The translations under genes were made by a program, and so were the position numbers. From contig JAJQGJ010000009.1 in NCBI GenBank assembly GCA_021200565.1, positions 1 through 33,482 on the forward strand: a stretch of DNA of 33,482 nt, written 5' to 3'. Origin of the DNA: Oscillospiraceae bacterium (GTDB taxonomy: Bacteria > Bacillota > Clostridia > Oscillospirales > Ruminococcaceae). Under the pieces are notes generated by a model that did no database searches, was not told where the DNA came from, and saw nothing but the letters and a program-made list of their open reading frames with translations. Below, piece after piece: positions 1 to 15,194 of this stretch. Every line of letters begins with the position of its first letter. The stretch's first letter is position 1.

Positions 1-17
1 TCCTTCTTATTTTTCTT

Positions 18-554
18 CTATTTTGCTATTGACTTTTTATAGCTGGTCTTTCTGACAACCAGCGTGAGCCTGAGGTCGCAAAGCGTTATCGTTGACCCTT
101 CGTTAACCCTTTTAGGCGTGTTTTTTACCAATCTTTCTCCATCAACAAGCGTCCCATAGGTGCTTAAATCCTGAACTATCACCCCAAGATTTCTGCGTGG
201 AGTTACCCTGATATGCTGCCTGCTGACAGACGGATAATCGCTGAGAAGCTCTGCTCCTATGCCGGTTCTGCCGACTATTCCTCCCTCATCGGGAATCGGT
301 ATCTCCGTGCCGGACAAAAACCTGAGGGCATACTTTGTGCTGCTGACAACAAAGCTGTCGCCCGCCTGCGTGTCCATCTCTTCATCCTGAGGCTTTCTGG
401 CGCCATTTAACAGCTCCTGAACCTTGGGATCGTTCTCATTATATGTCTGAAAATCCACCAATCTTCGCCCGCATGAAGGACAGTTGTCCGGAAAGCTCAG
501 CCGCTTCTCAAAAACTATCTTCTCCCCGCATGAACATATCTTGCAAAAGCTCAT
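18..554 (-). CDS. Zinc-ribbon FHA-domain protein
   Basis: A 178-aa protein. The N-terminus carries a Cys cluster (C4, C7, C9, C25, C28) that looks like a zinc ribbon. A linker leads to a C-terminal forkhead-associated domain at about 75-170, with the diagnostic GR (95-96), SRQH (111-114) and a DLSTYGT turn in place of the usual N-G-T. FHA domains bind phosphothreonine peptides, so this is a likely reader of the Ser/Thr kinase encoded two genes upstream. An SD (GGAGGAG) precedes the ATG. The gene begins 3 bases after the stop of the coiled-coil gene and is the last of the train inside the window; the operon may continue beyond base 1. No transmembrane segment is seen. The FHA call is firm; the partner is inferred. 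Confidence 0.9.
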   Translation of the reverse strand: MSFCKICSCGEKIVFEKRLSFPDNCPSCGRRLVDFQTYNENDPKVQELLNGARKPQDEEMDTQAGDSFVVSSTKYALRFLSGTEIPIPDEGGIVGRTGIGAELLSDYPSVSRQHIRVTPRRNLGVIVQDLSTYGTLVDGERLVKNTPKRVNEGSTITLCDLRLTLVVRKTSYKKSIAK

Positions 555-557
555 TTG

Positions 558-1631
558 TTACTCCTCCGTTGTGCGAGCTTTGAGCTCGGTTCTTCTTGCT
601 TTTTTCTGCTGCCTGGTTTTCTTCGAATCCTGAAGATCGCTCTGGGCACATATCGTGTCCAAGGATGCCGGCTCGACATAGACGTGATTGAAAACGATGC
701 CTTTCTCCAGTGCCAGCTCCTCCACCTCACGGTACATCGAGCAAATACTGTTTGCACCGGCTTCAAGGGCACGCTTCTGGTCGAGCGAGCCTTCTTTTGT
801 CTTCGCTATGGGCTCAAACATGATGCCCGAGCCGTCTGCACCTACGAATACATCGCACAGGGGCTGACCGTCAACAGAGAAGAGCTGACCTTCTGTGTGG
901 TCAAGAACCACCTGGTCTTTTACCGAGCAGCCGAGGCTTGCCATGATTTCTTCAATGGTGCTCATGATGTAGGCGTCCTGCTTCTGCTTTTCTGCAAGAG
1001 CAAGCAGCCGCTTTTTAGCGCTTGATACCTTTTCGGGGAGCGTTTCGACCGGCTCCTCTCCGACTAACTGGCACAGGGCGCAGTAATCGTAATACTCGCT
1101 CTCAAGCTTCTGATAATCAACCATCGAGCAAAGAGTGCCGCCCTGGATATAGCTCTCGATCCTCATCTTAAGATACTTAAGCTTGTCTTCAATGTCCATT
1201 TTCTGATTGCTGAGAGTCTTGGAGGTTTCGAGTAAAACCCGCTCTTTATCAAGAGCATCCTGCTCGGTGAGAACTGCACGGTCATCAATAGAGTCAACCA
1301 GCTTCTCTATTTCCTGCTCAAGCTGCGATGAGAAGATATGATTCTCCTCGAGAAGTGAAGACAGGTCTAAAATGGTCCGTGACGGCGCAGACTGCTCATC
1401 ACGCAGCTCCTCTCCGATACGTACCTTGCATATAAATCCGCTGACTCCCTCATCATCATTTGTGACTGTGACCTCCATATTTGATGAGGTGGAAGTCACA
1501 ACGCTGTTCTTATGTCCCTCAAGAAGCTGTGCTCTAATCTTGTTGATGTTTTCCATCAGCTCGGCTTTGAGTCTCGCTTTTCGCATAGCCTCAAGCTGCG
1601 CTGTCGAATAGTAGCTACTCACAATCTTCAC
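558..1631 (-). CDS. Coiled-coil protein, unknown function
   Basis: A 357-aa protein not recognised as a named family. It has a charged helical N-terminus (about 10-40), a predicted coiled coil at about 100-215, a mixed alpha/beta region at about 230-320, and a basic Lys/Arg-rich tail at about 335-357. It has no signal peptide, membrane segment or catalytic motif that I can see. It starts 8 bases after the kinase stop and ends 3 bases before the FHA gene, so it is almost certainly cotranscribed with both and may be a scaffold or kinase substrate (inference). Thr/Ser-rich stretches near 45-55 could be phosphosites, but that is only a guess. Confidence 0.8.
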   Translation of the reverse strand: MKIVSSYYSTAQLEAMRKARLKAELMENINKIRAQLLEGHKNSVVTSTSSNMEVTVTNDDEGVSGFICKVRIGEELRDEQSAPSRTILDLSSLLEENHIFSSQLEQEIEKLVDSIDDRAVLTEQDALDKERVLLETSKTLSNQKMDIEDKLKYLKMRIESYIQGGTLCSMVDYQKLESEYYDYCALCQLVGEEPVETLPEKVSSAKKRLLALAEKQKQDAYIMSTIEEIMASLGCSVKDQVVLDHTEGQLFSVDGQPLCDVFVGADGSGIMFEPIAKTKEGSLDQKRALEAGANSICSMYREVEELALEKGIVFNHVYVEPASLDTICAQSDLQDSKKTRQQKKARRTELKARTTEE

Positions 1632-1639
1632 CCTCTATC

Positions 1640-3226
1640 TTATAATTCATCCATATGTCTGAGCTCTCTTTCATAGCCCATCCTGTAGAACCACGCCTTG
1701 AACTGGTCGGAAGAAAGCATTGAGTCGATCTCCTTAGCGGAATGCCCTGTGATAGCAGAAATGAGAGTATCCAAAGAATCAACAGTCTTTCCGAAAACGC
1801 TGATGCTTGACTTTCCCTGGAGCGCAAAGCAAATTGTGCAGATTGCAGTCATATCTGCATTCGAATTCTTCCTTATGAGTTGTTCAAGCCGGTCAACCTG
1901 AGCCTGATCATACTGCATCTCCCTCAGATATGTAACCAGCATTCCGGAATAGAGGAATCTTATGGCAATCTGATCTCTTCCGGAAGCCAATGAACTCACG
2001 TAGCTTGGAAGATCCTGATATTCCTTGCCGCAGTAAAAAATTTGCCCTGAGCCCTTTTCCAGCAAGAGAAGAAGCCTGAATACAGCGGCATCCTCATCAT
2101 GCAAAATCACAAGCGGGCGAATTTCGGAAGCCAGCTCCTTGTCAAATTGCTGCACAAAATCTATGAGCTCTCTTCGCTTGACAACCTTTTTTGCCTGCTC
2201 CCAGTGAGCCTTGATTGCGTTTGCAAGCTGATGAAGAGTAGACACGGAAAGTGTCTGACCATCGAAGCGTCCGAAAATAAGTGGCTTTTTGGGACGTTCT
2301 CTTGCCGGGCGGGCATAGGAGCCTCTGCTGACAGGGCTCATATATTCGCCCTCTAGCCATCTTTTGACTTCATCATATCCCCAACGGCTCTCTTCATCCT
2401 CTGTGATGAGCCCTTTGACAAGATTCAAAAAACGTCCCTCAATCTGACTCGGCAGCTCAATGCCGTTTTCCCACGCCCTTGAAATCTCCTCGACGGACAT
2501 TCCGGAAAAGAGCGAGTGCCCTAAAATCATTCTGCAAATAACCAACCCAAATGAGCCGTAATCATAAGCGGGTGACATAGAAGCACTCCACAGAAGGGTC
2601 CGGACTCTCGGAGCGTATTCGGGAGTTCCTCTTGCCACATCTATAAGCTTTCCGTTTGCGTTTGTATACCCGCTGACGCCGCAGTCGCCGATTACAACAC
2701 GCTTCTTGCCGTCAGCGTAAAACAGATTGCTCGGCTTTATATCACAATGTACAATTCCACGCTTATGCAGCTCGTTGAGACCTTCGTTGATGGAAGGAAT
2801 AATGACTTCCTGCAGATGGGCGCTGTTGACCTCGGCTTCTTTTTCTAGTGTTCCCTCCGGATAATAATCGTATATTTCAAAATATCTGTCCTGATAGTCG
2901 CCGCATTCGACGACATGTGCGATATTCGGGTGACGGACGTTCATCAGAAAATCCTGAATCTGAGATGATGGTCGCCAGCCATCGTGGTAGATTTTGACTA
3001 CATACGGCTTTCCCCATTTTCTTGCCAGGTAGACATCAGACTGCTTCCCCTGCCCGCTCATAAGGGAGCTTATTATATAGCTGTCGGCAACAGATTCGCC
3101 TGACATCAGGTGCATTTGTGCAGAGGAAGTATTTGTTCCTGACGAGCCTGGCGCTACTGTGGCGGCTGCATCAATATTCTTTTGACCAGCTTGCCCGGGA
3201 GCCCTTGTTTCATCCGCATTTATCAT
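1640..3226 (-). CDS. Ser/Thr protein kinase (non-RD type) with C-terminal extension
   Basis: A 528-aa protein. After a low-complexity Ala/Ser/Thr N-terminus (1-45) comes a protein kinase fold at about 50-300: glycine loop GQGKQSDVY (58-66), VVK lysine K78, catalytic loop HCDIKPSN (160-167, D162), metal-binding DCG at 181-183 in place of DFG, and GTPEYAP (200-206) as the P+1/APE segment. The residue before the catalytic Asp is Cys rather than Arg, making it a non-RD kinase; such kinases usually do not need activation-loop phosphorylation. The helical C-terminal 200 residues are not recognised. No transmembrane anchor is seen, unlike PknB-type kinases. The start ATG overlaps the radical SAM stop by 4 bases, implying coupled translation. 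It likely phosphorylates neighbours read by the FHA protein (inference). Confidence 0.92.
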   Translation of the reverse strand: MINADETRAPGQAGQKNIDAAATVAPGSSGTNTSSAQMHLMSGESVADSYIISSLMSGQGKQSDVYLARKWGKPYVVKIYHDGWRPSSQIQDFLMNVRHPNIAHVVECGDYQDRYFEIYDYYPEGTLEKEAEVNSAHLQEVIIPSINEGLNELHKRGIVHCDIKPSNLFYADGKKRVVIGDCGVSGYTNANGKLIDVARGTPEYAPRVRTLLWSASMSPAYDYGSFGLVICRMILGHSLFSGMSVEEISRAWENGIELPSQIEGRFLNLVKGLITEDEESRWGYDEVKRWLEGEYMSPVSRGSYARPARERPKKPLIFGRFDGQTLSVSTLHQLANAIKAHWEQAKKVVKRRELIDFVQQFDKELASEIRPLVILHDEDAAVFRLLLLLEKGSGQIFYCGKEYQDLPSYVSSLASGRDQIAIRFLYSGMLVTYLREMQYDQAQVDRLEQLIRKNSNADMTAICTICFALQGKSSISVFGKTVDSLDTLISAITGHSAKEIDSMLSSDQFKAWFYRMGYERELRHMDEL

Positions 3227-3783
3227 TTCTTCACCTCCGGAATACCGATAGTCAGCATACTGTTTCCGTATAAAACGGTCTGAACCTCACGTTTGCAGGC
3301 GTCAAGACCACGGTATAGCTCGTGATGTCTGAAAACGTGAAGCTTCTGGTTTGAGGAGCCTCTTATTCCTATGCTGTCATTGAGCTCGTCAACATAGGGT
3401 CCGTCGACTATTGCAGATGATTGCGCAATAATTCTGTCGACATTCTCATCATGCATGGCAGCGAGCTCATCAAGCGTAAAGCCGGTGTAGATGAGAATAT
3501 CGTCGCTTATGAGAGCAAGCTCTTCAACCAGGTCGCAAAGAGCATCAGGCTGCAGAAAAGGCTCGCCCCCGGAAATGGTGAAGCCATCGGGAGATTTTCC
3601 TATGCGTCTTATGATTCCGATTATCTCGGAGGTCGACAATTCCTTTCCGGCTTCTATGGATTTAAGCTCAGGGCTGATGCAGCCCTGGCAATTACGGCAA
3701 CAGCCGGCTGTCCAGATTCCGATTCGCTCTCCTGGTCCCAGAGTTTTTACAGGGTAATATATCCGTGCGACACTTAAAGGCAT
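3223..3783 (-). CDS. NrdG/PflA-like radical SAM activating protein
   Basis: A 186-aa protein from ATG 3783, which is preceded by an SD-like GGAGC. The open frame extends further upstream, but that part overlaps the preceding gene and lacks family similarity. The N-terminal half carries the radical SAM [4Fe-4S] motif C28-x3-C32-x2-C35, then SGGEP at 71-75, which binds SAM. Length and layout fit the anaerobic ribonucleotide reductase activase/glycyl-radical-enzyme activase class, which makes a 5'-deoxyadenosyl radical and installs a glycyl radical on a partner. No NrdD- or PFL-like partner with a C-terminal glycyl-radical motif is encoded here, so the substrate is unknown and may be another protein of this operon. 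It starts 5 bases after the 348-aa gene and overlaps the kinase gene. Confidence 0.88.
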   Translation of the reverse strand: MPLSVARIYYPVKTLGPGERIGIWTAGCCRNCQGCISPELKSIEAGKELSTSEIIGIIRRIGKSPDGFTISGGEPFLQPDALCDLVEELALISDDILIYTGFTLDELAAMHDENVDRIIAQSSAIVDGPYVDELNDSIGIRGSSNQKLHVFRHHELYRGLDACKREVQTVLYGNSMLTIGIPEVKK

Positions 3784-3788
3784 AATTC

Positions 3789-4835
3789 TCAGAGCTCCGT
3801 TGTAAAGTGGGACGGGCAAACGAGCCTCCCGCCGGAAACCGTTCCTCCGCAGAAGAGGCAATGTCCGTTTCTTTTGCGAAGATATATCTCGTGCCCCATC
3901 TGCCACTGGTTCATTGCGTTTACAAGCACGTCGGAAGAGATGCAGAACGGTCTTCCATCTGTGAGAATCCTGAGACATTCTGTCGGTGTCGGTATTTTTC
4001 TTGTCAGCTCGCTCTGAAACGGAGAACGGGTTTTTGTGACAACATCCGCCCTGAGGAAATCGAGCGCCTTCGACGGAGGCGTGGAAAGAAGATTTCCAAC
4101 ACCCCAGCAATACGGTTCGTCCTGCTTGTCGGCTTCATAGGCGTCAATATTCAGAAAAGCATGTGTGCCAATCGGCTCTCTGTGCAAAGTGCTTGTGAGT
4201 ATCTCAACGCTTGCGGTGCTTTCAAAGCTCAGATGAAAATAATCCCCGCCAAAGAGAGCCTGCCCGCCGAGTTTGCGCTTGCTGATAACCCAGCTGTAAC
4301 CGGGACGGCTCACTTTCATAAGCCTTTTCAGATATTTCGTGTTTACTGCATTGATATATTCCTGCAGTCCCGGATTAGCTGACCAGGTCAGGTCTCTGAC
4401 ATCATCCATCCCGCCATAGAGCATAATGAGGTACACAGCGGTGTTCGCAGTCTGCTTCAACGCCTCGACATAGTCCATTATGTCCTTCTTTGGAAGAACC
4501 GTTATACTTTCTGTGAACGGCTCGGGAGAACGAAGAAGCCCCTGGCAGACAGAAGCCTCGCTTTCTATCATTTCGTTCGCCTGACGGATGCTCTCAAGCG
4601 TCTTAAGTGCTTCATAAGGATTGGCTCTGAGCTTGTTTATGAGCTTCTCACCATTTTCTCTCATAGACCCACCGATGCCAGAGTAGAAGTTATAGTTATT
4701 CAGGTAATCCTGAAGCCTAAGAACGTCGTCATCCGAAGATATTGCATCCTCATACAGCTGATTCAGTTCGTAGTCGTGCCCATTGGTCTCACGGCGCAAT
4801 ATATTCAAAAGGTAAATTACTCTTTTCGCATCCAT
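3789..4835 (-). CDS. Unknown protein with C-terminal Cys cluster
   Basis: A 348-aa protein with no family I recognise. The first half is helical and polar. The second half is mixed and ends in a putative metal-binding knuckle (CLFCGG, then CPSH) within the last 25 residues, which could be a zinc ribbon. It has no signal peptide or convincing transmembrane segment. It sits immediately upstream (5 bases) of the radical SAM gene, with which it is probably translated, making it one candidate for the activase's target or accessory (inference). An RPGY motif mid-protein is not convincing as a glycyl-radical loop because that loop normally lies near the C-terminus. Confidence 0.8.
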   Translation of the reverse strand: MDAKRVIYLLNILRRETNGHDYELNQLYEDAISSDDDVLRLQDYLNNYNFYSGIGGSMRENGEKLINKLRANPYEALKTLESIRQANEMIESEASVCQGLLRSPEPFTESITVLPKKDIMDYVEALKQTANTAVYLIMLYGGMDDVRDLTWSANPGLQEYINAVNTKYLKRLMKVSRPGYSWVISKRKLGGQALFGGDYFHLSFESTASVEILTSTLHREPIGTHAFLNIDAYEADKQDEPYCWGVGNLLSTPPSKALDFLRADVVTKTRSPFQSELTRKIPTPTECLRILTDGRPFCISSDVLVNAMNQWQMGHEIYLRKRNGHCLFCGGTVSGGRLVCPSHFTTEL

Positions 4836-4854
4836 TCCGCTTCATCCTTATCCG

Positions 4855-5280
4855 TCATTTGCCGTACTGCTGCAGTATCTCTGCCAATGCTATATATCTC
4901 GGGTCGTTCGGAGAGTAAGTCAGGGCTGCGCTGATGTGCTCAAGTGCATGAATTCTTGCATATTCTCCTCTTCCGTCGTTCAACTCGAGAATTGCCAGAA
5001 GAAATTCCCGGTCTCCGCAGAATGACATTCTTGATGAGCTCCGTCTGAGCTCAAGTCTGCCATAGCCTGAGCCGCCTCTCAACGCTTCAGACATCACAGT
5101 TTGGTCAGACACCATAGAACCGGCGTTATTACTGCTGGGAGCTTGCTCTTCCGTTACTGCTATTTTCCTGCCTCTTGAGTGCAGAATGTCACGGGCAGCG
5201 CTGACAGGCTCATATTCTGCGGCAAGAGTGTAGCACTCCTTGAGAAGCGACAGCTCCATGCCATCAGGTGAATCTTTCAT
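4855..5280 (-). CDS. Small helical protein, unknown function
   Basis: A 141-aa protein. A helical N-terminus (1-40), a Ser/Gly-rich linker (50-75) and a C-terminal pair of helices (about 85-138) that reads like one or two TPR-type repeats. An SD (GGAGG) lies 7 bases before the ATG. It is the first gene after the intrinsic terminator at 5298-5328 and heads the downstream half of the train (unknown 348-aa, radical SAM, kinase, coiled coil, FHA). No enzyme motif is visible. It could be an adaptor (inference). Confidence 0.72.
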   Translation of the reverse strand: MKDSPDGMELSLLKECYTLAAEYEPVSAARDILHSRGRKIAVTEEQAPSSNNAGSMVSDQTVMSEALRGGSGYGRLELRRSSSRMSFCGDREFLLAILELNDGRGEYARIHALEHISAALTYSPNDPRYIALAEILQQYGK

Positions 5281-5297
5281 CTTTCATCCTCCAAAGC

Positions 5298-5328
5298 AAA
5301 AATGCGGGAGGGAGCGCTTCCCTCCCGC
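5298..5328 (-). terminator. Internal intrinsic terminator splitting the operon
   Basis: On the minus strand a 10-bp GC-rich stem (GCGGGAGGGA / TCCCTCCCGC, forward 5304-5313 and 5319-5328) with a 5-nt loop is followed by ATTTTTG. It sits just after the membrane-protein gene and before the 141-aa gene, with no evident promoter in the 57-bp gap. It probably lowers expression of the signalling half relative to the motor half. Confidence 0.82.
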
Positions 5329-5337
5329 TGTCTGCAG

Positions 5338-5673
5338 TCAGATAGTACTGTTATTGTTTATCGTAGTGTTGAGCTGCTTCTGTGCCGCTTCCACTTTATC
5401 AGTGATTGCAGAAGCCCTACTGTGCATAAGGTATACTCCAACAAATCCGCCAATAAAAAGACAAGCCCCAAGAGCCACTAATACATTAAAGCCACAAAGG
5501 ACAAAGCCAATCACAGAAATGATCAACAAATACCAGGATTTTGTCTTGTCTGAGCTCGCACTATTTAAGGCTCCGCTTCCTAATCTTTCTGCTTCCGTAC
5601 ACAAATTTCTGTGAGCACTGGTAATGTCACTTTCGCATTTGTTGATTGCCCTTCTTGCTTCCTGAACTGTCAT
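5338..5673 (-). CDS. Small two-TM membrane protein
   Basis: A 111-aa protein: an amphipathic/coiled N-terminal helix (1-42), two adjacent hydrophobic segments at about 46-64 and 66-84 forming a hairpin, and a short polar C-terminal helix. Both ends are therefore predicted on the same face of the membrane. A strong SD (AAAGGAGGAG) precedes the ATG, and the gene follows the FtsK-like ATPase by 14 bases. It is the only clear membrane protein of the gene train, so it is the obvious candidate for a membrane anchor or pore component. Homology to EssA/EssB/YukC-type secretion proteins is not apparent. Confidence 0.78.
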   Translation of the reverse strand: MTVQEARRAINKCESDITSAHRNLCTEAERLGSGALNSASSDKTKSWYLLIISVIGFVLCGFNVLVALGACLFIGGFVGVYLMHSRASAITDKVEAAQKQLNTTINNNSTI

Positions 5674-5687
5674 TTCAAGCTCCTCCT

Positions 5688-7289
5688 TTATTCGCCGGTA
5701 GCCTTTTTATATGCCAATGAATAATCGTCTATCCATTCCTTTGCAGGGATGTCGTATGGGCGGAAGTGAGTGTTTCTGACATCGTTATTTATGTCCATAT
5801 ACACTGCGCTCTTGCCCTTTATGTTCCTTGATGGAGGCTCCGAGACAAGAATATCCATCGAGTCGTCATCAAGGTCATAGGCGATTCGCTTGCCAAACAT
5901 TCCGTCGTAGTTGTCGCCGAGAATATTTTCGATGCTTCTGATTCCCTCGCCCCAGACAATGCTGTTTACACCAAGCTTCGGACCATATGTTAAGATTCTC
6001 TGAAGCTTCTCAAGAGTGCTCAGACCGTCGCTGTCATCATCATAGATTCTGTGAGTGCGCAGCTTTCTTGCTCTGTTGATACCGAAGAACATGAAGAATA
6101 GTCGGTCAGCGGTTGATTTTCTTCCCTCGGAGCGTGCCATGACCTCATCGTACACGGTATTTATCATACCTTCAATATCGCCGACACCGGTGATTCCAAT
6201 CTGATTCTTGAAGCTGTCTCTGAGATACTTGAAATCGCACTCATCATCAGAGATTTCATCGGCGAGCAGGTCCACAATGTAAACAAGCTTGTTTGACTTG
6301 TTATTCTCGGTGTTAAGCTCCTCATAGAGAACGCTCATGGCTGAAAACTCGAACAGACTGAGAGCCATCTTTTCATCTCTGGTCACGATAAGCAGATTGT
6401 CGCTGTCCTTTGAACGAAGCTCAGAAATAAACTGAGTCTTCTTGCCGAAGCCTTGTCCGAGAAGCAAGCCATAGCTGTCACTGGAGTCTGTCAGAGGCTG
6501 GATGGTGTGCGGACCGACCTTTACAAGCTGATTGAAGCAGTTGTAGAAATTGTCCTCAGCGTTTGTCAGCATGATGCGTGTACTCAGATTCTTGTAAAGC
6601 TCACTGACGGCGGGATCTCTGTAGTACTCATCGAGACATTCCAAGAGCCTCTTGCGCTCGTCATCTTCGAGGAAGCTCACCTGGAAGTAGTTGTTGGCAG
6701 ACTCCACGCCTCCTCCGTTGTTGTAGATAGCTGAACCTGCATCCTGGTTCCGCCGCAAAGTCTCGGCAGCGGAGTTGTCGCTGCTCAGAATGGACGAAGC
6801 GCCTTCTTCGGCACCCTTTATCGCAATGCGGATGGACATCTGACTGAAATATGCTTCAAGACCGGAGCAATTACGGAAGTCCTGGCATGCAAGAATAAGA
6901 TGGATTCCCATCGCACGCCCCTGCATTACAAGTCTGTTGATGCAGGAAAGACATTCTGAGCTTATCGAGTCGCTTTCATCGCTCTTACGGAAAAGCTCCT
7001 GTACCTCGTCGAATATCATAACCAGCTTTGGAATCTTTGCAACGCCCGAAAGCTCAGAGTAGCCGTTAATATCCGATTTGCCATAACGGCTGAAATATTT
7101 GGTTCTTGCTTCAAGCTCATTGCAAAGCTCCTTTAACACGTTAAGACCGAATTCACGCTCACTGTTCAATGCCACAACACGAAGCGAGGGAAGCCTGTAC
7201 TGTGTGTAAATATTGAACTCGACGCCCTCCTTGAAGTCAAGAAGATACATCTGCACCTCATCCGGAGAGTAGCTTATCATCGTGCTCAT
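5688..7289 (-). CDS. FtsK/SpoIIIE-type ATPase, C-terminal part (frameshifted)
   Basis: The 533-aa open frame is the C-terminal part of one ATPase whose N-terminal part is at 7286-9397. It contains Walker B (LVMIFDE, D94/E95), the FtsK-type GIHLILACQ segment that follows, and a second, degenerate ATPase-like module whose P-loop reads GQGFGKKT at about 270. The ATG at 7289 has no SD and lies inside the P-loop domain, so it is not a natural start. Reading this frame upstream to 7328 gives TGAGKSTLLHTLIMST, completing the Walker A motif begun in the other frame. Joined by a -1 shift at 7328-7334 the product is 1236 aa. Translocases of this type pump DNA or protein through a membrane channel. Confidence 0.85.
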   Translation of the reverse strand: MSTMISYSPDEVQMYLLDFKEGVEFNIYTQYRLPSLRVVALNSEREFGLNVLKELCNELEARTKYFSRYGKSDINGYSELSGVAKIPKLVMIFDEVQELFRKSDESDSISSECLSCINRLVMQGRAMGIHLILACQDFRNCSGLEAYFSQMSIRIAIKGAEEGASSILSSDNSAAETLRRNQDAGSAIYNNGGGVESANNYFQVSFLEDDERKRLLECLDEYYRDPAVSELYKNLSTRIMLTNAEDNFYNCFNQLVKVGPHTIQPLTDSSDSYGLLLGQGFGKKTQFISELRSKDSDNLLIVTRDEKMALSLFEFSAMSVLYEELNTENNKSNKLVYIVDLLADEISDDECDFKYLRDSFKNQIGITGVGDIEGMINTVYDEVMARSEGRKSTADRLFFMFFGINRARKLRTHRIYDDDSDGLSTLEKLQRILTYGPKLGVNSIVWGEGIRSIENILGDNYDGMFGKRIAYDLDDDSMDILVSEPPSRNIKGKSAVYMDINNDVRNTHFRPYDIPAKEWIDDYSLAYKKATGE

Positions 7290-9397
7290 GATGAGGGTAT
7301 GTAAGAGTGTAGACTTGCCGGCGCCGGTTTTCCCGCTATGAGCGCATGGTGCTCGGTGCTGCCGCCGCCTCTGCCCAGAACCATCTTGACAACATCGTTT
7401 GCGCCCTTGATTCCCAAAGGAATATCAATCTCGTCATGATTTCCGGTGAACCAGTTGTTGCTGTCATAGATGTCCGACCTATACATGTCTGCAAACTTCT
7501 CTATCTTTCCATGTGTACGGTCTATTTCTTCAGCAAGCAGAAACAGAATGTCATCCTTGTTTTCGAGGGCATCAGCCATATCATCGAGCTGCAGGAATAA
7601 TCCATCGCTCTTATCTCCTACAAGCAGCAGCTTTCCGCCGGTGGCTCTTGTTTCAACCACGCTCTGAGAGATTTCGGTGACCAGGGTTTCATGTCTCTGC
7701 AGCAGCTTGCCGAGCTCCACATCATTTGCGCAGATAAGTACACAAACTCCGAGAAAAGCGCTGTTTCTCACGATGGCGTGAAGGTCCTTGAGTGCGGTAT
7801 CGCTGAAGCCGGTCGGGAAGTCGGTGATTGCAAGCACCCTAACAACTTCCTTTTTCAGTCTGCTTTCCTTATCGGTGCCATATGCCTGGGTCATATTTTC
7901 GAGCTTCTGGCGGAGCGTTGCTATGGCGTTCTCGATGTCACGTTCCTTGCTCCAGATTTTTGTATCGATGATTCTCGAGGCATTGGGACCCTTTGCGAGC
8001 TTCGGAATGTCGGGGAAGCTTGTGCCCATCTCAAGCGGGTCTATCATCGTCGCCTCAAGCTTGCCTGCCGGGAAGGACATGAACAGCTTCAGAAGAAGCG
8101 GCTGCATCATGCTCTGGACTGTTGTTTTCTCTTTGGGAGAATAGCGGATCATGAGGGATATTCCGTCATCCAGGCTCTGGCTGTAGGGGATGCTGACGGT
8201 GTATGAGCCGGCTTCTCTTCTGCCGAATTCATCCGTCTGAGTCTCTACTGCCTGTACAATCGCCATATCGTCCTTACTCTGATTGGGGAGAGTGCAGCCG
8301 ATGGTGCCGAGCATAATCTGGTCGGGAACCAGCTCAACGCATTCATAGCGGGCTCCATTGAACCTTGTGGACATGACTCCCTGAGCATAAGCCTTGACGG
8401 TGGCTTTATTGAAGCCGGAAGCGATGTCGGCACGGCGCTCTTCGCAGATGCTTCTGTTTCTGATTTCGAAGCGACGCTCTATCTGTTTATCTCTTTCAAT
8501 CTGCTCGCTACGAGCCTTTTCGATCTTTTCGTTTCTTGCTCTTTCGGCTTCGGCGATGCAACAGTCACGCAAGGTTTTATATGCGTTGATTTTCCTGTCA
8601 ATAGCCTTCTGCACGGTGTCATTCGCTTTGCGGACACTGCCCATCGAAGCGCTCACAGCGCCTCTTACCGCAGAAGCTTTTTCGGGAATACGAGACTGGA
8701 AAAGCTCACAGCCCTGAAAGATATTCTTGGCAGGGTTGCGTCTGCTTTCTGTTGCATTGACATTCTTGTTGCATTCTTCCTGGAATCTCTTCTTTGAAGA
8801 TTCGCATTCTCTGTTTGCACTCAAGACTTCAGAATCATAAATCTGCTGGCTCTGAGTCTTGTCACGCTCATACTCCTTGCGTGCATTCGCAAGCTCTTGT
8901 CTGAATGCAGAGGTATGCTGCTTGAGCGCCATAAGAGCAGTGGTCGACTTCTTATGACCATAAGGCATGTCCCGCCAGTTCATCCAAGGGTGAACCGGAT
9001 CATCATCTTCGGCACTCACAGATCCCCGATCCAACGGTTTGGAATCGAGCACATCGATAACCACTTCCGGAATCTTATTCGGTGCGTCGTTAACCACTGA
9101 ATCAACAAACACTTCGGGGATATGCACAGCTGGAGCTGGAGCTGAAGCTGGATTTGACGTCGGCTTCACAATATCAGATTCCGAAACCTTGACCAGATAG
9201 ACCTCGCCCGAAGAGCCGATTCCGGTAACCTGGACACGGATAGCGTCGCCGGCTTTCATGCCCGGCTCCTGCTCAGCGTCCCATATGATTCCGACAACGC
9301 CGGGACTGACCTCCACAAAAATCCCATACGGTGCAAAGTCCTGTATCCTGCCAGTCAGCTGCTGACCAACCGAAAGAACTCCATTAAATTCGCTCAT
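7286..9397 (-). CDS. S1 / coiled-coil / FtsK-like ATPase, N-terminal part (frameshifted)
   Basis: A 703-aa frame. Residues 5-75 form an S1-type OB fold (VGQQLTGRIQDFAPYGIFVEV and following strands). A Pro/Ala linker follows, then a long charged coiled coil at about 150-330, then a degenerate FtsK-like module at about 385-590 (YSPKEKTT where a P-loop would be). The frame then enters a second P-loop domain, ALIAGK, and goes out of frame at codon 690: the last 13 residues before the stop are not FtsK-like. A -1 shift at the GGGAAAA heptamer (7328-7334) restores GKTGAGKST. Three tandem ATPase-like modules with one good P-loop recall the EssC/YukB layout, but EssC has FHA rather than S1 domains at its N-terminus. 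The ribosome binding site is weak. Confidence 0.85.
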   Translation of the reverse strand: MSEFNGVLSVGQQLTGRIQDFAPYGIFVEVSPGVVGIIWDAEQEPGMKAGDAIRVQVTGIGSSGEVYLVKVSESDIVKPTSNPASAPAPAVHIPEVFVDSVVNDAPNKIPEVVIDVLDSKPLDRGSVSAEDDDPVHPWMNWRDMPYGHKKSTTALMALKQHTSAFRQELANARKEYERDKTQSQQIYDSEVLSANRECESSKKRFQEECNKNVNATESRRNPAKNIFQGCELFQSRIPEKASAVRGAVSASMGSVRKANDTVQKAIDRKINAYKTLRDCCIAEAERARNEKIEKARSEQIERDKQIERRFEIRNRSICEERRADIASGFNKATVKAYAQGVMSTRFNGARYECVELVPDQIMLGTIGCTLPNQSKDDMAIVQAVETQTDEFGRREAGSYTVSIPYSQSLDDGISLMIRYSPKEKTTVQSMMQPLLLKLFMSFPAGKLEATMIDPLEMGTSFPDIPKLAKGPNASRIIDTKIWSKERDIENAIATLRQKLENMTQAYGTDKESRLKKEVVRVLAITDFPTGFSDTALKDLHAIVRNSAFLGVCVLICANDVELGKLLQRHETLVTEISQSVVETRATGGKLLLVGDKSDGLFLQLDDMADALENKDDILFLLAEEIDRTHGKIEKFADMYRSDIYDSNNWFTGNHDEIDIPLGIKGANDVVKMVLGRGGGSTEHHALIAGKPAPASLHSYIPSS
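7318..7334 (-). other. -1 slippery heptamer plus GC palindrome at Walker A
   Basis: In the upstream frame the minus strand reads GCG GGA AAA CCG, giving the canonical X XXY YYZ heptamer G GGA AAA (7334 to 7328). It is followed at once by the 10-bp palindrome CCGGCGCCGG (7318-7327). Slipping back one base gives exactly the P-loop GKTGAGKST. Either recoding or a one-A deletion or sequencing error in the A-run would look the same here. Confidence 0.6.
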
Positions 9398-9445
9398 ATT
9401 AGTACCTCTTTTCTGTAAATTATTAGTATATCATAGTGCTTTTTC

Positions 9446-9649
9446 TCAATCGAAATTACCGTCGACATGAAGCGCACGCTTCGGAAGATAATTGGCTATT
9501 TCCCTTTTCTCCTCAACAGCTTTCATAAGTGCTTCCAGATACTCATCTTTGGTGCAGGCATAATCGCTCGGGGAAGGCGCATATCCGAAGAGTTCATAAT
9601 ACTTGATGTTATACGGTATGCATTTGTCTGCGAATTCTATTGAGTTCAT
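9446..9649 (-). CDS. Small acidic protein, unknown function
   Basis: A 67-aa protein. The start at 9649 is chosen because AGGAGG lies 9 bases upstream; a longer open frame to 9688 overlaps the preceding gene and has no SD. It contains a Tyr-rich central part (YNIKYYELFGYAPS) and a helical KDEYLEALMKAVEEKR segment. No family is recognised. It lies 13 bases after the HExxH protein gene and could be a cognate immunity or chaperone protein for it, by analogy with effector/immunity gene pairs (inference only). Confidence 0.72.
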   Translation of the reverse strand: MNSIEFADKCIPYNIKYYELFGYAPSPSDYACTKDEYLEALMKAVEEKREIANYLPKRALHVDGNFD

Positions 9650-9662
9650 TTTTTGATTCCTC

Positions 9663-11429
9663 CTAGTCATTGATGCCGTAGAACTCATTGTATTGCTTAT
9701 AGATGCTCGGAAAATAGGTCTTTAAGAATTCCTTTGATGTGCCGTTGTCAAGGCATCTGATTGCCCCCATCTCGGCATATATTTCACCCATTCGCATTGA
9801 AGTGCCGCCATCGGAAGCACGAATCCCGTATCGGTCTATGCCCATCCAGTAATCATTAGAATGAGTCCACGTGGGAATTCCATTTTCAGCGAATTTGTTA
9901 ATTATTTCTCTGTCATTTCCGTTCTCTCCGAACACTGCGAATATCAGGTCAGAGACAGCCTTATCCTTAGCCGCACAAGAGCCGCTGACCGCATCCTTAA
10001 GCATCATATCGAACTTTTTCTGTCCCTCTTCTGTGGATCTGTCCATGCTGGCTAAATCAGCCTTAACAGCAGATATGAATTCGGGCTTTTTTGACTCCCA
10101 TCCCCTTTGATGATCCAAAAAATGAGATAATTCATGCGGCAACGTTTCCTGAAATTCATCATCGTCAGCCTGTTCATTCATGAATACCTGCTGCAGACCT
10201 GGAGAATAGTATGAACAGTTTTTTACCCACTGACCCTGATCGTTGAATCCATAACCGCTGTCAGTGATCGGCTTGACTTTCCCAGCAAGCTCATTCAACG
10301 CCTCAACAATCTGCCTGGGAGCTTTTCTGAACGCATGCTCAGCTGCACTCTCACGCTTTTGTGGAATCTTGCCCTTGAGCGTTGTTTCCATCAGCTCAGT
10401 TTTTGCCTTGAGTTCCGCTGCAAGCTCCTCAAAATCCGGCACCTTGTGCTCATAAAGGTGATATGTGCCGTCCTCACAGTCTGCGGAGAGGATTTGTGTG
10501 TACTCCTTGTCGAATTCTGCGATGGCTGCTTCCATGGTTGAACCGTCGGTGACGCCTTTGTCACGCAGGCTGTCACGATAGATTTCGAGCATGTTGTCGA
10601 TATATCTTCTGCCCTCATCCCACATCTGCTGAGGTGACTTTTTTCTCACCAGCTGCCTTTCCGGCTCTTCCTCAGTCTGCTGCTTCAGACATAGAAGAAT
10701 ATTCTGCATGGCATTGAGCTTGGCTCTCCTTTCGTCGATCGACAAGCCTCGATCCTGCAGCTCTCCTGTCAGCTGATCCATATAGTCGGGATTCCCGCTT
10801 TCGTGTGAGGGACTGTATCCGTCTGCAAGCGACGATGAAGAGCCTCCATGATAGCTCTGAGCGACTCCGCTCAGATCAAGAGCGGAACGGGGTGTCGTGG
10901 TCCAGGGATTGCCGGCACCGCCTTCGCTGACCGGCACATACTCCGCCGTGGCTTCGATGCCCATGCTCTCAAGGAGTGCTACCTTTATGTCCTCGATTTC
11001 GTTCAGCCTTTCAGCCATACCCTTGGTTAGCTCATAGGAATCTCTGCCAAACGCACCGCCTTTCAAGCGCCCAAGCTTTTGCAGATTGCTCCGGGTTGTT
11101 TTGTTATGCTGCTCGATGCTCGCAACCTGTTCTTTCTTCTCCCTGTTGATCCGGTCAAAATCACCCTGGGCCTTTGCGAGAGCCCGCTGGCTCGCCTCAA
11201 GCTGGCTCTGAGCCATATTCAGCTGTGTCTGAGCCTCACGAACGTCGCCCTTAGGATTTCCCTCTCCATCGGTTTCACTGACGGCGGCTAATCTTGCCCT
11301 GGCAGCAGCAACCGCACTGCTGCAGGAGGCAACCATATTCCTGCAGACACCTAACTTTCGCTCAGCCTTGTTGCCCTTTTCAATAAGTCCTTCAGCATCT
11401 CTTCCGAACTCTTTGAAGCTTTTCGCCAT
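9663..11429 (-). CDS. Coiled-coil protein with C-terminal HExxH metalloprotease-like domain
   Basis: A 588-aa protein. The N-terminal 130 residues are Ala/Gln/Arg-rich heptad-like helices, followed by a Gly/Ser/Pro linker (about 170-220), a further helical region, and a C-terminal domain with HELSH at about 432-436, then GEIYAEMGA at about 545-553, which fits a downstream Glu ligand (gluzincin-type zinc peptidase). It has no Sec signal peptide. A long helical N-terminus plus a toxin-like peptidase resembles non-Sec effectors of LXG/type VII systems, though no LXG signature is evident. It is flanked by two translocase-like ATPase genes and follows a small helical protein gene. It could instead be an internal protease of the apparatus. 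Confidence 0.82.
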   Translation of the reverse strand: MAKSFKEFGRDAEGLIEKGNKAERKLGVCRNMVASCSSAVAAARARLAAVSETDGEGNPKGDVREAQTQLNMAQSQLEASQRALAKAQGDFDRINREKKEQVASIEQHNKTTRSNLQKLGRLKGGAFGRDSYELTKGMAERLNEIEDIKVALLESMGIEATAEYVPVSEGGAGNPWTTTPRSALDLSGVAQSYHGGSSSSLADGYSPSHESGNPDYMDQLTGELQDRGLSIDERRAKLNAMQNILLCLKQQTEEEPERQLVRKKSPQQMWDEGRRYIDNMLEIYRDSLRDKGVTDGSTMEAAIAEFDKEYTQILSADCEDGTYHLYEHKVPDFEELAAELKAKTELMETTLKGKIPQKRESAAEHAFRKAPRQIVEALNELAGKVKPITDSGYGFNDQGQWVKNCSYYSPGLQQVFMNEQADDDEFQETLPHELSHFLDHQRGWESKKPEFISAVKADLASMDRSTEEGQKKFDMMLKDAVSGSCAAKDKAVSDLIFAVFGENGNDREIINKFAENGIPTWTHSNDYWMGIDRYGIRASDGGTSMRMGEIYAEMGAIRCLDNGTSKEFLKTYFPSIYKQYNEFYGIND

Positions 11430-11456
11430 GAGTATGCATGCTCCTCCCGCCTGTTA

Positions 11457-11951
11457 TTAACCGAATGCTTTTGATATACTGCTCTTGAGTCTCCTGATTT
11501 CCTGCTGGGTTTCTTCTGAAAGACCCTCGACATCGGAAATTAGACCTTCGTATTCACTCGCACTGCTTTCAAGCTTCTGCGAGCCGGTTTCAGCAGCTTC
11601 TCTGCCAATTTCAGAAACTTGAGATGCTCTTTCGAGGCTGGAAATACCAGAGCGGACGTTTCCGAGCTCGCTTCTTGCGGTATCCGACACTTCTCTGCTC
11701 TTTTCGGATACCTCCCTGCCCTTTGTCTCTTCTACCTGTTCGGAAAATCCCTCATCAAAGCTTGACTGATACTTCCTTCCAGTTTCGATCATTGACTCAA
11801 GGTCTTCATCGTCCTGCAGTTCGATACCCTCCAGGATTTCATTGATTTCATCAGCCTGCTCGTTCATTTCGCTGCCAAGCTCTGTGGCTTCTTTGCCGGT
11901 TTCCCTGACTTCGCCGATGCCTTCGTTAAGTTTTAGTTTGAATCCGCCCAT
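11457..11951 (-). CDS. Small all-helical protein
   Basis: A 164-aa, very acidic and Ser/Glu-rich protein, essentially a continuous string of amphipathic helices with repeated S-E-V/S-E-I heptads and only one aromatic-poor turn. An SD (AAAGGAG) precedes the ATG. It sits 16 bases after the HerA-like ATPase gene and 27 bases before the HExxH protein gene. Size and helicity recall WXG100/LXG-partner proteins exported with their cargo, but no WxG motif is present, so the comparison rests on context and composition only. Confidence 0.75.
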   Translation of the reverse strand: MGGFKLKLNEGIGEVRETGKEATELGSEMNEQADEINEILEGIELQDDEDLESMIETGRKYQSSFDEGFSEQVEETKGREVSEKSREVSDTARSELGNVRSGISSLERASQVSEIGREAAETGSQKLESSASEYEGLISDVEGLSEETQQEIRRLKSSISKAFG

Positions 11952-11967
11952 AATGTAACTCCTTTAC

Positions 11968-14883
11968 TTATTTGGTTCGTTGTAACCGTTTTTGTTTCTG
12001 AAGACAGTATTTCTTATAGAGCTTCTCTATTTCTGTCTTGACACTCTTCAAAGCTCCTGACTCTTCAGTGACTTTGGTTACAGACAGGCATAATTCTGCA
12101 GCAAAATCTACAATCTGAGTCTGCAAGGCGTCAATCCCGACCAAATCCTCTTCTGGAATATCAAAGCGCTTCCAGCGCCCGGTTTTCAGCCTTTCAAGGG
12201 TATAGACCCAGTCCTTGGCTGTTGTCATCAATCCAATGGCTTCACTTTTCTTAGTGTCAGCCACTTCTGAAAGCTCTTCAAGTTTAACCTGGCATTCATA
12301 GTAGTCATCATATAGCTTTTCTTTTTCAGCATCGGGAACTACACGTATGCCTCTCTCGATTTTTTCGCAGTACTGCCCGAAAGCATCCCGCTCTGCAAGC
12401 TGGTTCAGATAATCGTAATACCACTTTTCAGATGCAGCAATCTTCGGCTTGATCTCTTCAAACATGCGGGAATACTTTTTCAGGATGATCCTGACGCTTG
12501 TCCGGTTTTCCTCAAGATAATTGGCGTTATCTCTGAGCGCCTTGCAAAGCTCTTCATCACTTTTTGGGGTGGTATCTTCGGGCTTGTCATTGATGTCGAT
12601 GCGCCATTGCTGTATATGTACATTGAAGGGACGCATCAGGCTCTCGTAGAATATCAGAGCTTCGCCGACCGGGAATGTGGACATCTCTTCGAGCTGCAGC
12701 TGGCTTGCCGCCATTGTGCTTCCCAGAAGAGAACGGTCATCGGCTGAGGTGATTCTCAGACCAAGCTTCAGACCGGTGTTTTTCAGCACCTCCTGCGCCA
12801 TGACTGACGGCAGCTGGTCTGCAATAACTATGCCCTCCTTGAGAGCACGGACCTCAGCAAGCATTTTCACGATGAACTCTGTTGCTGCCTGCTTCGGGTC
12901 TGCATCCACTCCGGGCTGCTTTTCAGATTCGGGACCGATGAGATTGTGCGCTTCCTCAATGAAGATAACGTGTCTGACATCCTTGTCGGTCTTGGGATTT
13001 GCTTTCAGCGTTTCCCGTATCAGGGAACAGAGCATCAGCGTCAGGAAGTTTGCAGGACCTGTGCCCATCGATTCGAGCTCGATAATTGCTGGAACCTCAA
13101 GCCATTTCTCCGGTGGGAAGGTCGACTCAGGGACATCGAAAACGTCGCCCATTTCTCGCCTGAGGAGACTTCCGATACGCACTTTCAGTGCCGATTCCAA
13201 GTTGCCGCTGACTTCAGCGCTGTATTTAGTGCTCTTAAGCTCCTGTTCAAGTCTCCGATAGAGCATCGACATCGTCGGGAGCCGCTTCTTATTGACTCCG
13301 TCCTTGTCTTTTTCTTCGCCGGTGTATCTGTGCTCGGGTATCCATCCGAGCTCTCTGTAAACCGCTTCAATGGCGGTATCAAGCAGGAACGGCATCGGGT
13401 TATCAAGCTGGAATGCTCCCTCGAATACAGAACACATCCTCCTGATATGCTCGGCAACAAGCGTCCCTTTCGGCATTTCAAAAGGATTTATATGTAGAGG
13501 AAAGCTCATGTCTGCATTCGGCGCAAACAGATAGACTCCCTGCATTTCCGGGTCGTTGAGAAGCGCTCTGTACTCCTGCTTTGCCGGCTCGAGCACCAGA
13601 AAAGGAATCCTGGCTTCCTCGTTCTTCCATAGCGAAGAGGTGATATGGTGCATGGTATTTGTTTTGCCGGAGCCGGGAACGCCGGAGATGAATGCATGCT
13701 TCGGCAAAAGGCTCAGCGGGAAGTTGACATCATACCCGTTGCGATCCTTTCCGAGATAAAGAGCATTCTTGCTGCCGTAAAACTGAGGTGCAGTCTCTTT
13801 CGGAAGCTGGATTGTCTCTCCATCATATAGAGCTGGGAATCTGAAAAACGGAGCGATTTCTTCAAGAGAAAAGAGCGTCGGCAGATAGTTCAGATTGATT
13901 CCGACAGTGTTCTCCTGGCATATGATAAGACCGGGTCTTCCCTTCCTCATAACCGCTCTGTCTCTTAAGTTGTCGAGCGATTCGACTTCACCATACAAAA
14001 AGCTTAAGGGAGAAAACCTCGATGTAAATGTGGAAATGCTGTATTTACCCTTCATCAGGCTTTCCGAGCCGGCTGCATCGAGTATTGAAGTGGCATCCTC
14101 ACGGTTGTTTGCGAATACCATGATATTGGAAATAAAGTGCGGAGAGGATTCGTATTTTTCAATCATATCCTCATAATTATCGAGCACATCCTTGCCGTCG
14201 TAATCACGCTTCATTCCGCTGCTGCGGTCATCCTGCCTCTTTCTGAGAATATTCATCGGCTTGCGTAGTGCTTCACGAAGGGAGCCACTTCGTTCAACAG
14301 GATACAAATCCACTCTGTAGAGCGCAGTCTTATCAAGAGAGCTCATCATTCTGCACATATCATAAAGTCGCCCGTCGTCATTCATTTCCCATTCACGCAG
14401 CATATAGTAGTCGTCGCCCTCACCGCTTCCGGCAGGGAGAAGAGTTTCGGTTTTCGTCAGAAAGCTGCACACGCTGAACTCCGGCTGTGGAATTCCTTTT
14501 CTTTGGAAGAACGTGTCGAGAGAGGCGGGAATCTTCTTGTCGTTACTGTCGGTTTCAGCTTCAAACTCTTCAAATCTGAAGAAAGCTGACAATGAAGAGG
14601 ATTCAATCATTGCCTGGACGTTCCGCATGGAGTCCTCATTGCCACGTATGAGAAGGAAGATATTGAGCCGTCTTCCGGGAGTGTCCTTTTCCTTGTCCTC
14701 CGGCTTCAAATACAGGTAAAAAAGATGGTATGACAGTCCGGACACAATGCCAGCTCTGTTCAGCTGACGCAAAAAGGAGATGTGCTTTTTGATAACGCCA
14801 TCGACGCCATTTTCCTCAAGCGATGAGTATTTATTCAGAGTCAGATCAGGCAGCTGCCTGATTGTATACCATCTTTCCGCCAT
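11968..14883 (-). CDS. HerA-like pumping ATPase
   Basis: A 971-aa protein, first gene of the train. A roughly 380-residue N-terminal region has no recognised fold. The ATPase core has Walker A GVPGSGKTNT at about 400, a VLEPAKQEYR segment, Walker B VIFIEEAHNLI at about 635, and a VIADQLPS/GLRITSADDRS region typical of the HerA/VirB4-like branch. A helical C-terminal tail (about 780-971) is rich in charged coiled coil. HerA-family hexamers translocate DNA (with NurA or Sir2-type nucleases) or drive conjugation-type export; no nuclease partner is encoded nearby. AAGGAG lies 14 bases before the ATG, which is long; see the short upstream ORF at 14846-14893. Confidence 0.88.
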   Translation of the reverse strand: MAERWYTIRQLPDLTLNKYSSLEENGVDGVIKKHISFLRQLNRAGIVSGLSYHLFYLYLKPEDKEKDTPGRRLNIFLLIRGNEDSMRNVQAMIESSSLSAFFRFEEFEAETDSNDKKIPASLDTFFQRKGIPQPEFSVCSFLTKTETLLPAGSGEGDDYYMLREWEMNDDGRLYDMCRMMSSLDKTALYRVDLYPVERSGSLREALRKPMNILRKRQDDRSSGMKRDYDGKDVLDNYEDMIEKYESSPHFISNIMVFANNREDATSILDAAGSESLMKGKYSISTFTSRFSPLSFLYGEVESLDNLRDRAVMRKGRPGLIICQENTVGINLNYLPTLFSLEEIAPFFRFPALYDGETIQLPKETAPQFYGSKNALYLGKDRNGYDVNFPLSLLPKHAFISGVPGSGKTNTMHHITSSLWKNEEARIPFLVLEPAKQEYRALLNDPEMQGVYLFAPNADMSFPLHINPFEMPKGTLVAEHIRRMCSVFEGAFQLDNPMPFLLDTAIEAVYRELGWIPEHRYTGEEKDKDGVNKKRLPTMSMLYRRLEQELKSTKYSAEVSGNLESALKVRIGSLLRREMGDVFDVPESTFPPEKWLEVPAIIELESMGTGPANFLTLMLCSLIRETLKANPKTDKDVRHVIFIEEAHNLIGPESEKQPGVDADPKQAATEFIVKMLAEVRALKEGIVIADQLPSVMAQEVLKNTGLKLGLRITSADDRSLLGSTMAASQLQLEEMSTFPVGEALIFYESLMRPFNVHIQQWRIDINDKPEDTTPKSDEELCKALRDNANYLEENRTSVRIILKKYSRMFEEIKPKIAASEKWYYDYLNQLAERDAFGQYCEKIERGIRVVPDAEKEKLYDDYYECQVKLEELSEVADTKKSEAIGLMTTAKDWVYTLERLKTGRWKRFDIPEEDLVGIDALQTQIVDFAAELCLSVTKVTEESGALKSVKTEIEKLYKKYCLQKQKRLQRTK

Positions 14884-14893
14884 AACGATTCAT
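14846..14893 (-). CDS. Possible 15-codon upstream overlapping ORF
   Basis: An ATG at 14893 sits 4 bases after AAGGAG, a closer fit to that SD than the ATPase start at 14883, which lies 10 bases further on in another frame. It would encode 15 residues and stop at TGA inside the ATPase gene. It may tune ATPase translation or be chance. Confidence 0.25.
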   Translation of the reverse strand: MNRYGGKMVYNQAAA

Positions 14894-15106: not shown

Positions 15107-15115
15107 TATAGCCAT

Positions 15116-15192: not shown

Positions 15193-15194
15193 TT

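Follow-up and report, generated by a model that had tools for sequence, protein, structure and literature searches.

Genes of the block and their conservation

We have studied a window of 33,482 bases from an Oscillospiraceae bacterium (bases 1–33,482 of a 40,237-base contig, in a genome of 2.18 Mb and 24 contigs), which contains a block of genes for two motor ATPases, a toxin-like effector and a set of putative control proteins. A previous sequence-only reading had placed twelve close-packed genes on the minus strand at positions 18–14883, and the list of open reading frames agrees with it. All genes of the block described below are on that strand. They code for proteins of 971, 164, 588 and 80 amino acids, an S1-FtsK ATPase, proteins of 111, 141 and 348 amino acids, a NrdG-like radical SAM enzyme and proteins of 528, 357 and 178 amino acids. 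The families found above Pfam cutoff in these proteins are FHA, Pkinase, Fer4_12/Radical_SAM and FtsK_SpoIIIE. The conserved block has one more gene, an AAA+ ATPase. It is a unit of thirteen genes, rare and apparently mobile.

We scanned the GTDB species genomes for patterns of the 971-residue ATPase (motor 1); 136 stretches matched, and seven of them encode relatives: L059, L060, L061, L062, L063, L064 and L065. Motor 1 has 65–68% identity in five of them, L059 (RUG11850), L060 (NALB_7813), L061 (a metagenome-assembled genome of Eisenbergiella), L062 (another of Roseburia) and L065 (RUG11872). In L060, L061, L062 and L065, all from metagenome genomes, a contiguous series is found: motor 1, the 164-residue helical protein, the effector, its small partner gene, FtsK, the protein with two transmembrane segments, the 141- and 348-residue proteins, radical SAM and kinase. 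Downstream of the kinase come the genes for the 357-residue, FHA and AAA+ proteins, and order and strand are the same as in the window. In L062 tblastn missed the two-transmembrane gene, which was read separately from the sequence. In the genome of L059 one contig carries the genes from motor 1 to the effector and a second one those from the kinase to AAA+; the part between them was not seen. The other two loci are L063, on an 8-kb contig, and L064, on the same contig as a further locus, L032. They have motor 1, the helical protein, a zincin and a gene of the 80-residue type, with no FtsK in the examined stretch. The sequence-only reading had expected a conserved block and not homologues scattered singly. 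This is what we find: four of the seven loci are contiguous, a fifth shows both ends and two hold the 5′ part only. The occurrence of that part without the rest in the examined stretches of L063 and L064 indicates that the block is modular.

The genes which are not swapped are 30–69% identical to those of the window where tblastn matched. The outer neighbours of the block differ among the four contiguous relatives while the gene order stays. Between the genomes of L060 and L061 the ratio of nonsynonymous to synonymous substitution rates (dN/dS) is 0.012–0.132 for all 13 genes; six dS values are above 1, so that the ratios are rough. The block is under purifying selection in these two relatives. 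Order and strand kept in four further genomes at this level of identity, together with the low dN/dS, place the block beyond chance.

Among 41 relatives a full-length motor 1 is found in the window's own genome only, and seven match the motor domain. Eleven of 295 genomes of the order match motor 1 at E ≤ 1e-40; one other genome (G058) does so over most of the length. The 5′ part of the S1-FtsK gene is present in one of 394 genomes of the order and one of 398 of the phylum, the window's in both cases, and the same genome is the one of 398 with the 348-residue family. A wider FtsK motor profile matches six of 394 genomes, the window's included. The occurrence of the block is at least what these genome samples and the pattern scan show. 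Motor 1 matched 43 plasmid records by tblastn, none covering more than 80% of the query. The 5′ part of S1-FtsK matched one plasmid record; for its 3′ part there were matches in 23 plasmid records and in 15 of the phage collection (six regions were inspected); the effector and the 348-residue protein matched no plasmid. In viral contigs there was no match to motor 1, to S1-FtsK or to a five-row alignment of the 348-residue protein, and an FtsK profile gave 24 short matches. A single viral-contig locus matched by the 348-residue protein was dismissed, since the match covers 22 residues of a phage-like contig.

The window starts with a repeat end of about 52 bp (1–52, no strand assigned) which is listed at nine other contig ends of the genome; the final 12 or so codons of the FHA gene fall inside it. 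The thirteenth gene, a ClpB-type AAA+ ATPase, is found in the window's genome at G000:C17:61–1878 and is 77% identical to the gene 3′ of FHA in relatives. Contig C17 opens with a different repeat end: it has thirteen matches, nine confirmed at contig ends and four on contig sides of unseen length. An insertion sequence apparently separates the FHA and AAA+ genes in this genome. Since the repeat copies are many, the joining of both contigs rests on synteny. A PP2C or vWA gene, looked for to the left of base 1, was not found; in relatives it is the AAA+ gene which follows FHA.

Repeat ends occur at contig ends of the assembly at window 1–52, at the start of C17 and at C2:40183–40230. A RelB/ParE toxin-antitoxin pair lies upstream of the block and divergent from it, at 15136–15965. 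At L061:8286–9978 and L102:7897–9706 there are tyrosine integrase and helix-turn-helix regulator genes upstream of the block, with a C5 methylase and an Eco29kI-type endonuclease downstream.

Motors, effector and putative control genes

Motor 1 (11968–14883) is an ATPase of the HerA/FtsK superfamily with a Walker A motif GVPGSGKTNT and a Walker-B-like HVIFIEEAH. Hydropathy indicates no transmembrane segment. Its HerA domain is just under the Pfam cutoff (DUF87, 23.0 bits for 23.2), and the HerA_antiphage model of NCBIfam gives 25.7 bits on the block, for a cutoff of 800. The predicted structure has a VirB4 N-terminal domain and a RecA motor, as expected for a VirB4-type ATPase. A profile search of the PDB gave no match, so that the family assignment rests on fold. 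The sequence-only reading had a HerA-like and an S1-FtsK motor in one operon: two motors of this superfamily do belong to the conserved block, but the first one models as VirB4-like and the gene of the other one is broken.

This second motor is split in the window into two open reading frames by a frameshift at the Walker A. The 5′ part (7286–9397) has an S1-like domain (13.9 bits, below the Pfam cutoff of 22), a coiled coil and a first FtsK domain, D1, without Walker A; it ends at the disrupted Walker A of D2. The 3′ part (5688–7289) has the remainder of D2 (FtsK_SpoIIIE) and D3, without Walker A. In L060, L061, L062 and L065 motor 2 is a single uninterrupted reading frame, with three FtsK domains, a Walker A in the middle one only and an N-terminal coiled coil, visible by eye. 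No transmembrane segment is found by hydropathy in these four intact copies; the scan of the block flags one stretch inside D1. Motor 2 groups with the motors of type VII secretion systems (T7SS) and, judged by sequence, is a soluble ATPase of the EccC/YukB type. A programmed frameshift was rejected as the simplest reading, since four relatives are intact; the frameshift of the window is either a sequencing error or a true lesion. In L060 a GroEL apical domain is inserted in-frame in motor 2 (L060:6855–7367), as found by phmmer against PDB sequences; the stretch has no Pfam match. The splicing of such a domain into the motor points to a protein cargo.

The effector gene (9663–11429, 588 residues) codes for a conserved N-terminal domain (residues 1–170, 10920–11429), with 46–60% identity in five relatives, and for a C-terminal domain (9663–10397), zincin-like with an HExxH motif, which is variable by comparison with the relatives. 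Residues 1–200 have 38–62% identity per 50-residue window with L061, L062 and L065. Past residue 200 L065 falls to 4–23%, while L061 and L062 retain a middle patch and then diverge. In L061 and L065 the DNA between motor 1 and roughly residue 215 of the effector is 78% identical; 14117–15575 has no match, and from 15576 onwards the identity is 79%, with the FtsK start at 15578. Such sharp borders indicate a joint exchange of effector tip and small gene. L060 and L061, which are 85–86% identical, have the same tip and the same small gene. Variation of the C-terminal domain between strains had been suggested as a check, and it is clear: there are four kinds of C-terminus among five readable effector genes, and the small gene changes with them. 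A conserved N-terminus with a variable C-terminus is the organization of a polymorphic toxin. The HExxH protein had been considered a component and putative cargo of the system. It keeps the role of putative cargo but it is no fixed component; from sequence comparison it is a polymorphic, swappable toxin-like effector.

The tip of L060 is a papain-fold glutamine deamidase (PF15644, E=1.8e-16, 61.6 bits for a cutoff of 24.1), which is a recognised toxin. That of L065 is SprT-like/DUF6782, under the Pfam cutoff; that of L062 has no Pfam match and a visible HExxH string. The zincin profile of the window matches those of L032 and L063; with the HExxH tips of L062 and L065 it gives no match. The 80-residue gene (9446–9688) overlaps the 3′ end of the effector and is a candidate immunity gene. 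Its relatives come after the zincin in L032/L064 and L063, and its profile does not match the 82-residue gene of L058. None of the four kinds of small gene which vary with the tip has a Pfam immunity family. Directly before the effector lies the 164-residue protein (11457–11951), helical by eye, a candidate effector partner. It has 50–58% identity in five relatives and weakly matches a small protein of the FtsK locus L120 (E=0.0083). A three-sequence effector profile matches the effector of L058, an FtsK-bearing contig of fecal origin (E=2.7e-10 in a search of a small set). In the PDB no match to an effector profile was found.

The remaining genes are downstream of the motors. The 111-residue protein (5338–5673) has two transmembrane segments by hydropathy and is the only one so flagged in the block besides the D1 stretch. 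The conserved 141-residue protein (4855–5280) has no Pfam family. The conserved 348-residue protein (3789–4835) has a C-terminal cysteine/histidine motif and no Pfam family above cutoff; a PDB profile search gave nothing better than E ≥ 0.2, and its predicted structure was too poor for use (predicted local distance difference test, pLDDT, 46.9). The NrdG-like radical SAM activase (3223–3810) has a provisional start codon. In the 528-residue Ser/Thr kinase (1640–3226) HCD replaces HRD, as in non-RD kinases, and the catalytic K/D/D are present in the sequence. The 357-residue protein (558–1631), with a coiled coil by eye, is 38–46% identical in five relatives. The 178-residue FHA protein (18–554) has a cysteine-rich N-terminus.

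Two other loci of the same genome have related genes. L120 (G000:C5:297000–316999) has an FtsK with coiled coil, two 89-residue proteins, an effector, kinase, PP2C, AAA+, radical SAM and FHA; its effector tip is an LHH nuclease (PF14411, E=4.6e-21) and a SUKH immunity gene is present. L119 (G000:C5:24000–43999) has kinase, coiled coil, FHA, radical SAM, AAA+ and PP2C, and no FtsK. The kinase, radical SAM and AAA+ profiles of the window match both loci; the 357-residue profile and, weakly (E=0.0023), the FHA profile match L119 only. These matches indicate that a related signalling core is reused.

In the wider motor 1 family we examined nineteen related ATPase places in eighteen loci. Genes next to fourteen of these places, 23 downstream and 11 upstream, were compared with Pfam; five places with no or dissimilar neighbours were omitted. 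The upstream ones were chosen by eye for GTPase motifs and the sample is not random. Among the 34 genes there are 11 Dynamin_N, 7 WHH/Colicin-DNase, 2 LHH and 5 SMI1_KNR4; L036 has an additional TNT-domain gene. By their sequence families these neighbours support a tie of the motor 1 family to toxins.

Dynamin-like GTPase genes, confirmed by Pfam, lie upstream of the ATPase in eleven loci (L030, L033, L035, L037, L039–L045), and several of these have a WHH/LHH nuclease gene and then SUKH or another small gene; the literature matches listed include no description of this arrangement. In L033 (G000:C23:10000–29999) alternating genes of about 250–320 and 175 residues come after the dynamin-like gene and a paralogue of motor 1 (32% identity); at E 0.01 Pfam gave nothing for the first two. 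L058 (MT836827, labelled Bacteriophage sp.) has a ThiF/E1-like gene, a small gene, FtsK, an effector with a zincin tip and a recombinase-like reading frame. The N-terminus of its effector is weakly WXG100-like (13.8 bits for 27.3); perhaps it is a bacterial mobile toxin locus and not a phage. Past the zincin cassette of L032 (15895–19288) there are Lgt, a 628-residue protein without Pfam family, a 104-residue protein and a Prok-JAB-like one (24.7 bits, cutoff 25).

Proposed protein delivery and rival readings

We read the locus, with slightly better than even confidence, as a polymorphic-toxin delivery system with two pumping ATPases under phospho-regulation. The effector organization (label domain, swappable tip, small gene), in the company of motors of EccC and VirB4 type and of a two-transmembrane protein, makes protein delivery the best reading; kinase and FHA suggest phospho-gating. 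Regulated export had already been proposed from the membrane, cargo and signalling parts: the parts are present, and export is plausible. The conserved N-terminal domain would be an address label, probably bound by the 164-residue protein, and the C-terminal domain, here a zincin-like metallopeptidase, would be the toxin, from which the 80-residue gene may protect the producer. The EccC-like motor would engage the effector, and the VirB4-like motor would drive or gate its passage at the membrane marked by the 111-residue protein, so that it is exported or delivered; we infer this direction of transport by analogy. EssC/EccC with LXG/WXG cargo and VirB4 with the cargo of type IV secretion are the precedents for this model. 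Kinase, FHA protein and coiled-coil partner would switch the system on by phosphorylation, while the AAA+ protein and the radical SAM enzyme may remodel or activate it.

Several observations weigh against delivery. No gene of the block encodes a clear envelope-spanning channel, as hydropathy flags a single two-transmembrane protein. There is no WXG100 protein above the Pfam cutoff in the block; the 164-residue type of L060 gives 11.7 bits for 27.3. Confidence in the motor 1 model is moderate (pLDDT 61.6) and full-length VirB4 proteins match it at a root-mean-square deviation of 15 or more. Motor 2 may be non-functional in the strain of the window. The window tip has 19.9 bits with DUF6782 (cutoff 27) and its 80-residue partner has no Pfam match. 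The effector N-terminal domain has one copy in each of six carrier genomes and none in the seventh searched, that of L063: there is a single effector of this kind per genome. None of the related FtsK and HerA loci examined is matched by the profile of this domain. The signalling core of L119 adjoins a superfamily-I helicase with a fused MTES_1575 nuclease, beyond which comes a DUF4236 protein, and L119 is a possible defence locus. A restriction-modification pair about 2 kb downstream of the L061 block also fits defence.

DNA handling or defence had been named as the alternative, and phage defence stays the main rival, possible but on the whole rather unlikely. The motors would then pump or sense DNA, and infection would free the toxin inside the cell through kinase/FHA signalling (abortive infection), the small gene being a safety antidote. 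Such a role agrees with the signalling core next to the helicase-endonuclease genes of L119, with the integrase upstream and the Eco29kI-type pair downstream of the L061 block, and with the lack of a membrane channel in the block. An FtsK relative in L031 adjoins vWA, PP2C, kinase and CARF genes, and the structure matches of the motor 1 model include DndH, with the best Z, and SIR2-HerA defence ATPases. Excerpts of PMC11090510 describe EssC-like ATPase cassettes in CoCoNuT III-A operons, a defence setting. The VirB4-like N-terminus of motor 1, the grouping of motor 2 with T7SS motors and the GroEL apical domain, which implies a protein substrate, argue against it. Papain-fold deamidases, WHH/LHH nucleases, TNT and SUKH, all present in the related loci, are families of polymorphic toxin systems, and a toxin tip swapped jointly with the small gene downstream of it agrees with exported polymorphic toxins (PMC3482391, in part).

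The block might also be two independent systems side by side, a VirB4-like ATPase with an effector cassette, as in L032/L064 and L063, next to an EssC-like FtsK/kinase module. The two loci which have the 5′ part alone in the examined stretch, and the FtsK loci without a nearby motor 1 (L120, L058), speak for it. Yet each of the four contiguous relatives has its effector and small gene placed between the motors, all on one strand, and this order persists despite the divergence from the window and the different outer neighbours; we consider two independent systems quite improbable. We give very little credit to a remnant of a conjugation-like DNA transfer element with VirB4- and FtsK-type motors: the VirB4-like model, the integrase of L061 and the patchy distribution would suit it, but the block has no relaxase or other mating-channel gene recognised by Pfam, its effector cassette is swappable and motor 2 is EccC-like, not a DNA translocase.

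A type IV-like and a type VII-like motor share one conserved operon with a swappable effector tip. For the question of how proteins are moved by soluble ATPases of the EccC/VirB4 type when no channel is known, the locus is a natural case, and the GroEL-apical fusion is a direct handle on the type of substrate. One genome has related control genes in three of its loci, and this suggests a module which can be plugged into conflict systems. A broader proposal, which we hold tentatively and with more doubt than conviction, is a distinct class of protein-delivery machine: VirB4-like and soluble EccC-like motors would act one after the other on a single swappable toxin, with no classical channel through the envelope, the kinase-FHA-AAA+-radical SAM module would be plugged onto other conflict machines, as in those three loci, and the VirB4-like ATPases, which often adjoin dynamin-like GTPases and nuclease toxins, would be a wider family of motors for toxin delivery.

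Comparison with known systems

The sequence-only reading found no standard system to match, and our searches agree. PADLOC and NCBIfam on ten of the thirteen reading frames (those of 141, 111 and 80 residues were omitted) gave partial or sub-threshold matches only and no named defence system. MADS6 gives 55.4 bits for an NCBIfam cutoff of 460, and the PADLOC mad models among the matches listed are only mad6 (kinase) and mad8 (both motors). The literature matches listed, from open-licence PMC papers, include no description of the whole gene combination. Relaxase and other VirB channel proteins of type IV secretion or conjugation have no Pfam match in the block. In the HerA-effector defence systems SIR2-HerA and DUF4297-HerA, both among the structure matches of motor 1, and in HerA/FtsK capture systems (PMC12839542, in part) a motor of this superfamily also adjoins an effector; the block differs by the VirB4-like N-terminus of motor 1 and by a swappable, toxin-like effector with a small partner gene. 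A Helicobacter pylori pan-genome paper describes a TerY-P island which includes genes for WxG, FtsK and an LHH nuclease. No structural gene of the type VI secretion system (T6SS) is seen in the block.

The threonine-phosphorylation pathway of the T6SS is a kinase-FHA control of a secretion machine. The block may have a similar control, with a ClpB-type AAA+ where the T6SS has a ClpV-like one; the consulted parts of PMC11217815 and PMC3482391 name the pathway and ClpV, respectively. Kinase, phosphatase and FHA parts are frequent in T7SSc–T7SSj, whose ATPases are membrane-bound (PMC11217815, in part). LXG effectors have a label domain, a swappable tip and a small downstream gene, and need small helical partners (PMC9600955, in part). 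The block resembles T7SSb/LXG by its EccC/EssC-type motor, an effector N-terminal domain of similar size and a small helical partner gene. It differs from T7SSa–T7SSj by a motor 2 without transmembrane segments and with three ATPase domains, not the four of the membrane-bound TsxC, and from T7SSb and T7SSc–T7SSj by the VirB4-like second motor and the radical SAM enzyme; WXG100 is not matched, nor is a YukD/EsaB (TsxB) ubiquitin-like protein in a Pfam scan of the block.

The closest likeness is with two groups of known modules. Mobile T7SS have a YueA-like three-domain ATPase in which the middle domain alone is active (Zhang et al. 2012, PMC3482391, in part), and motor 2 shares with them this architecture and the tie to polymorphic toxins. 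Four relatives (L060, L061, L062, L065) have such an EssC-like ATPase, while in the window its middle Walker A is frameshifted. The block adds the VirB4-like motor and has no identified WXG100 protein. In the excerpts of PMC11090510, CoCoNuT III-A variant 1 has a soluble EssC-like ATPase with an N-terminal coiled coil and three ATPase domains, of which D2 alone is predicted to be active. In variant 3 a VirB4-like ATPase carries a fused EccE3-like domain and is accompanied by a small helical protein; a kinase is nearby. The McrB-like GTPase, McrC-like nuclease and helicase core of CoCoNuT III-A, as well as CARF and vWA, have no Pfam match in the block, which adds an S1-like domain on FtsK, polymorphic effector tips, FHA, radical SAM and a ClpB-type AAA+. 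The parts of the block resemble these modules of mobile T7SS and CoCoNuT III-A; in the latter both types of motor are known as separate extensions (PMC11090510), whereas the block of the window joins them in one operon.

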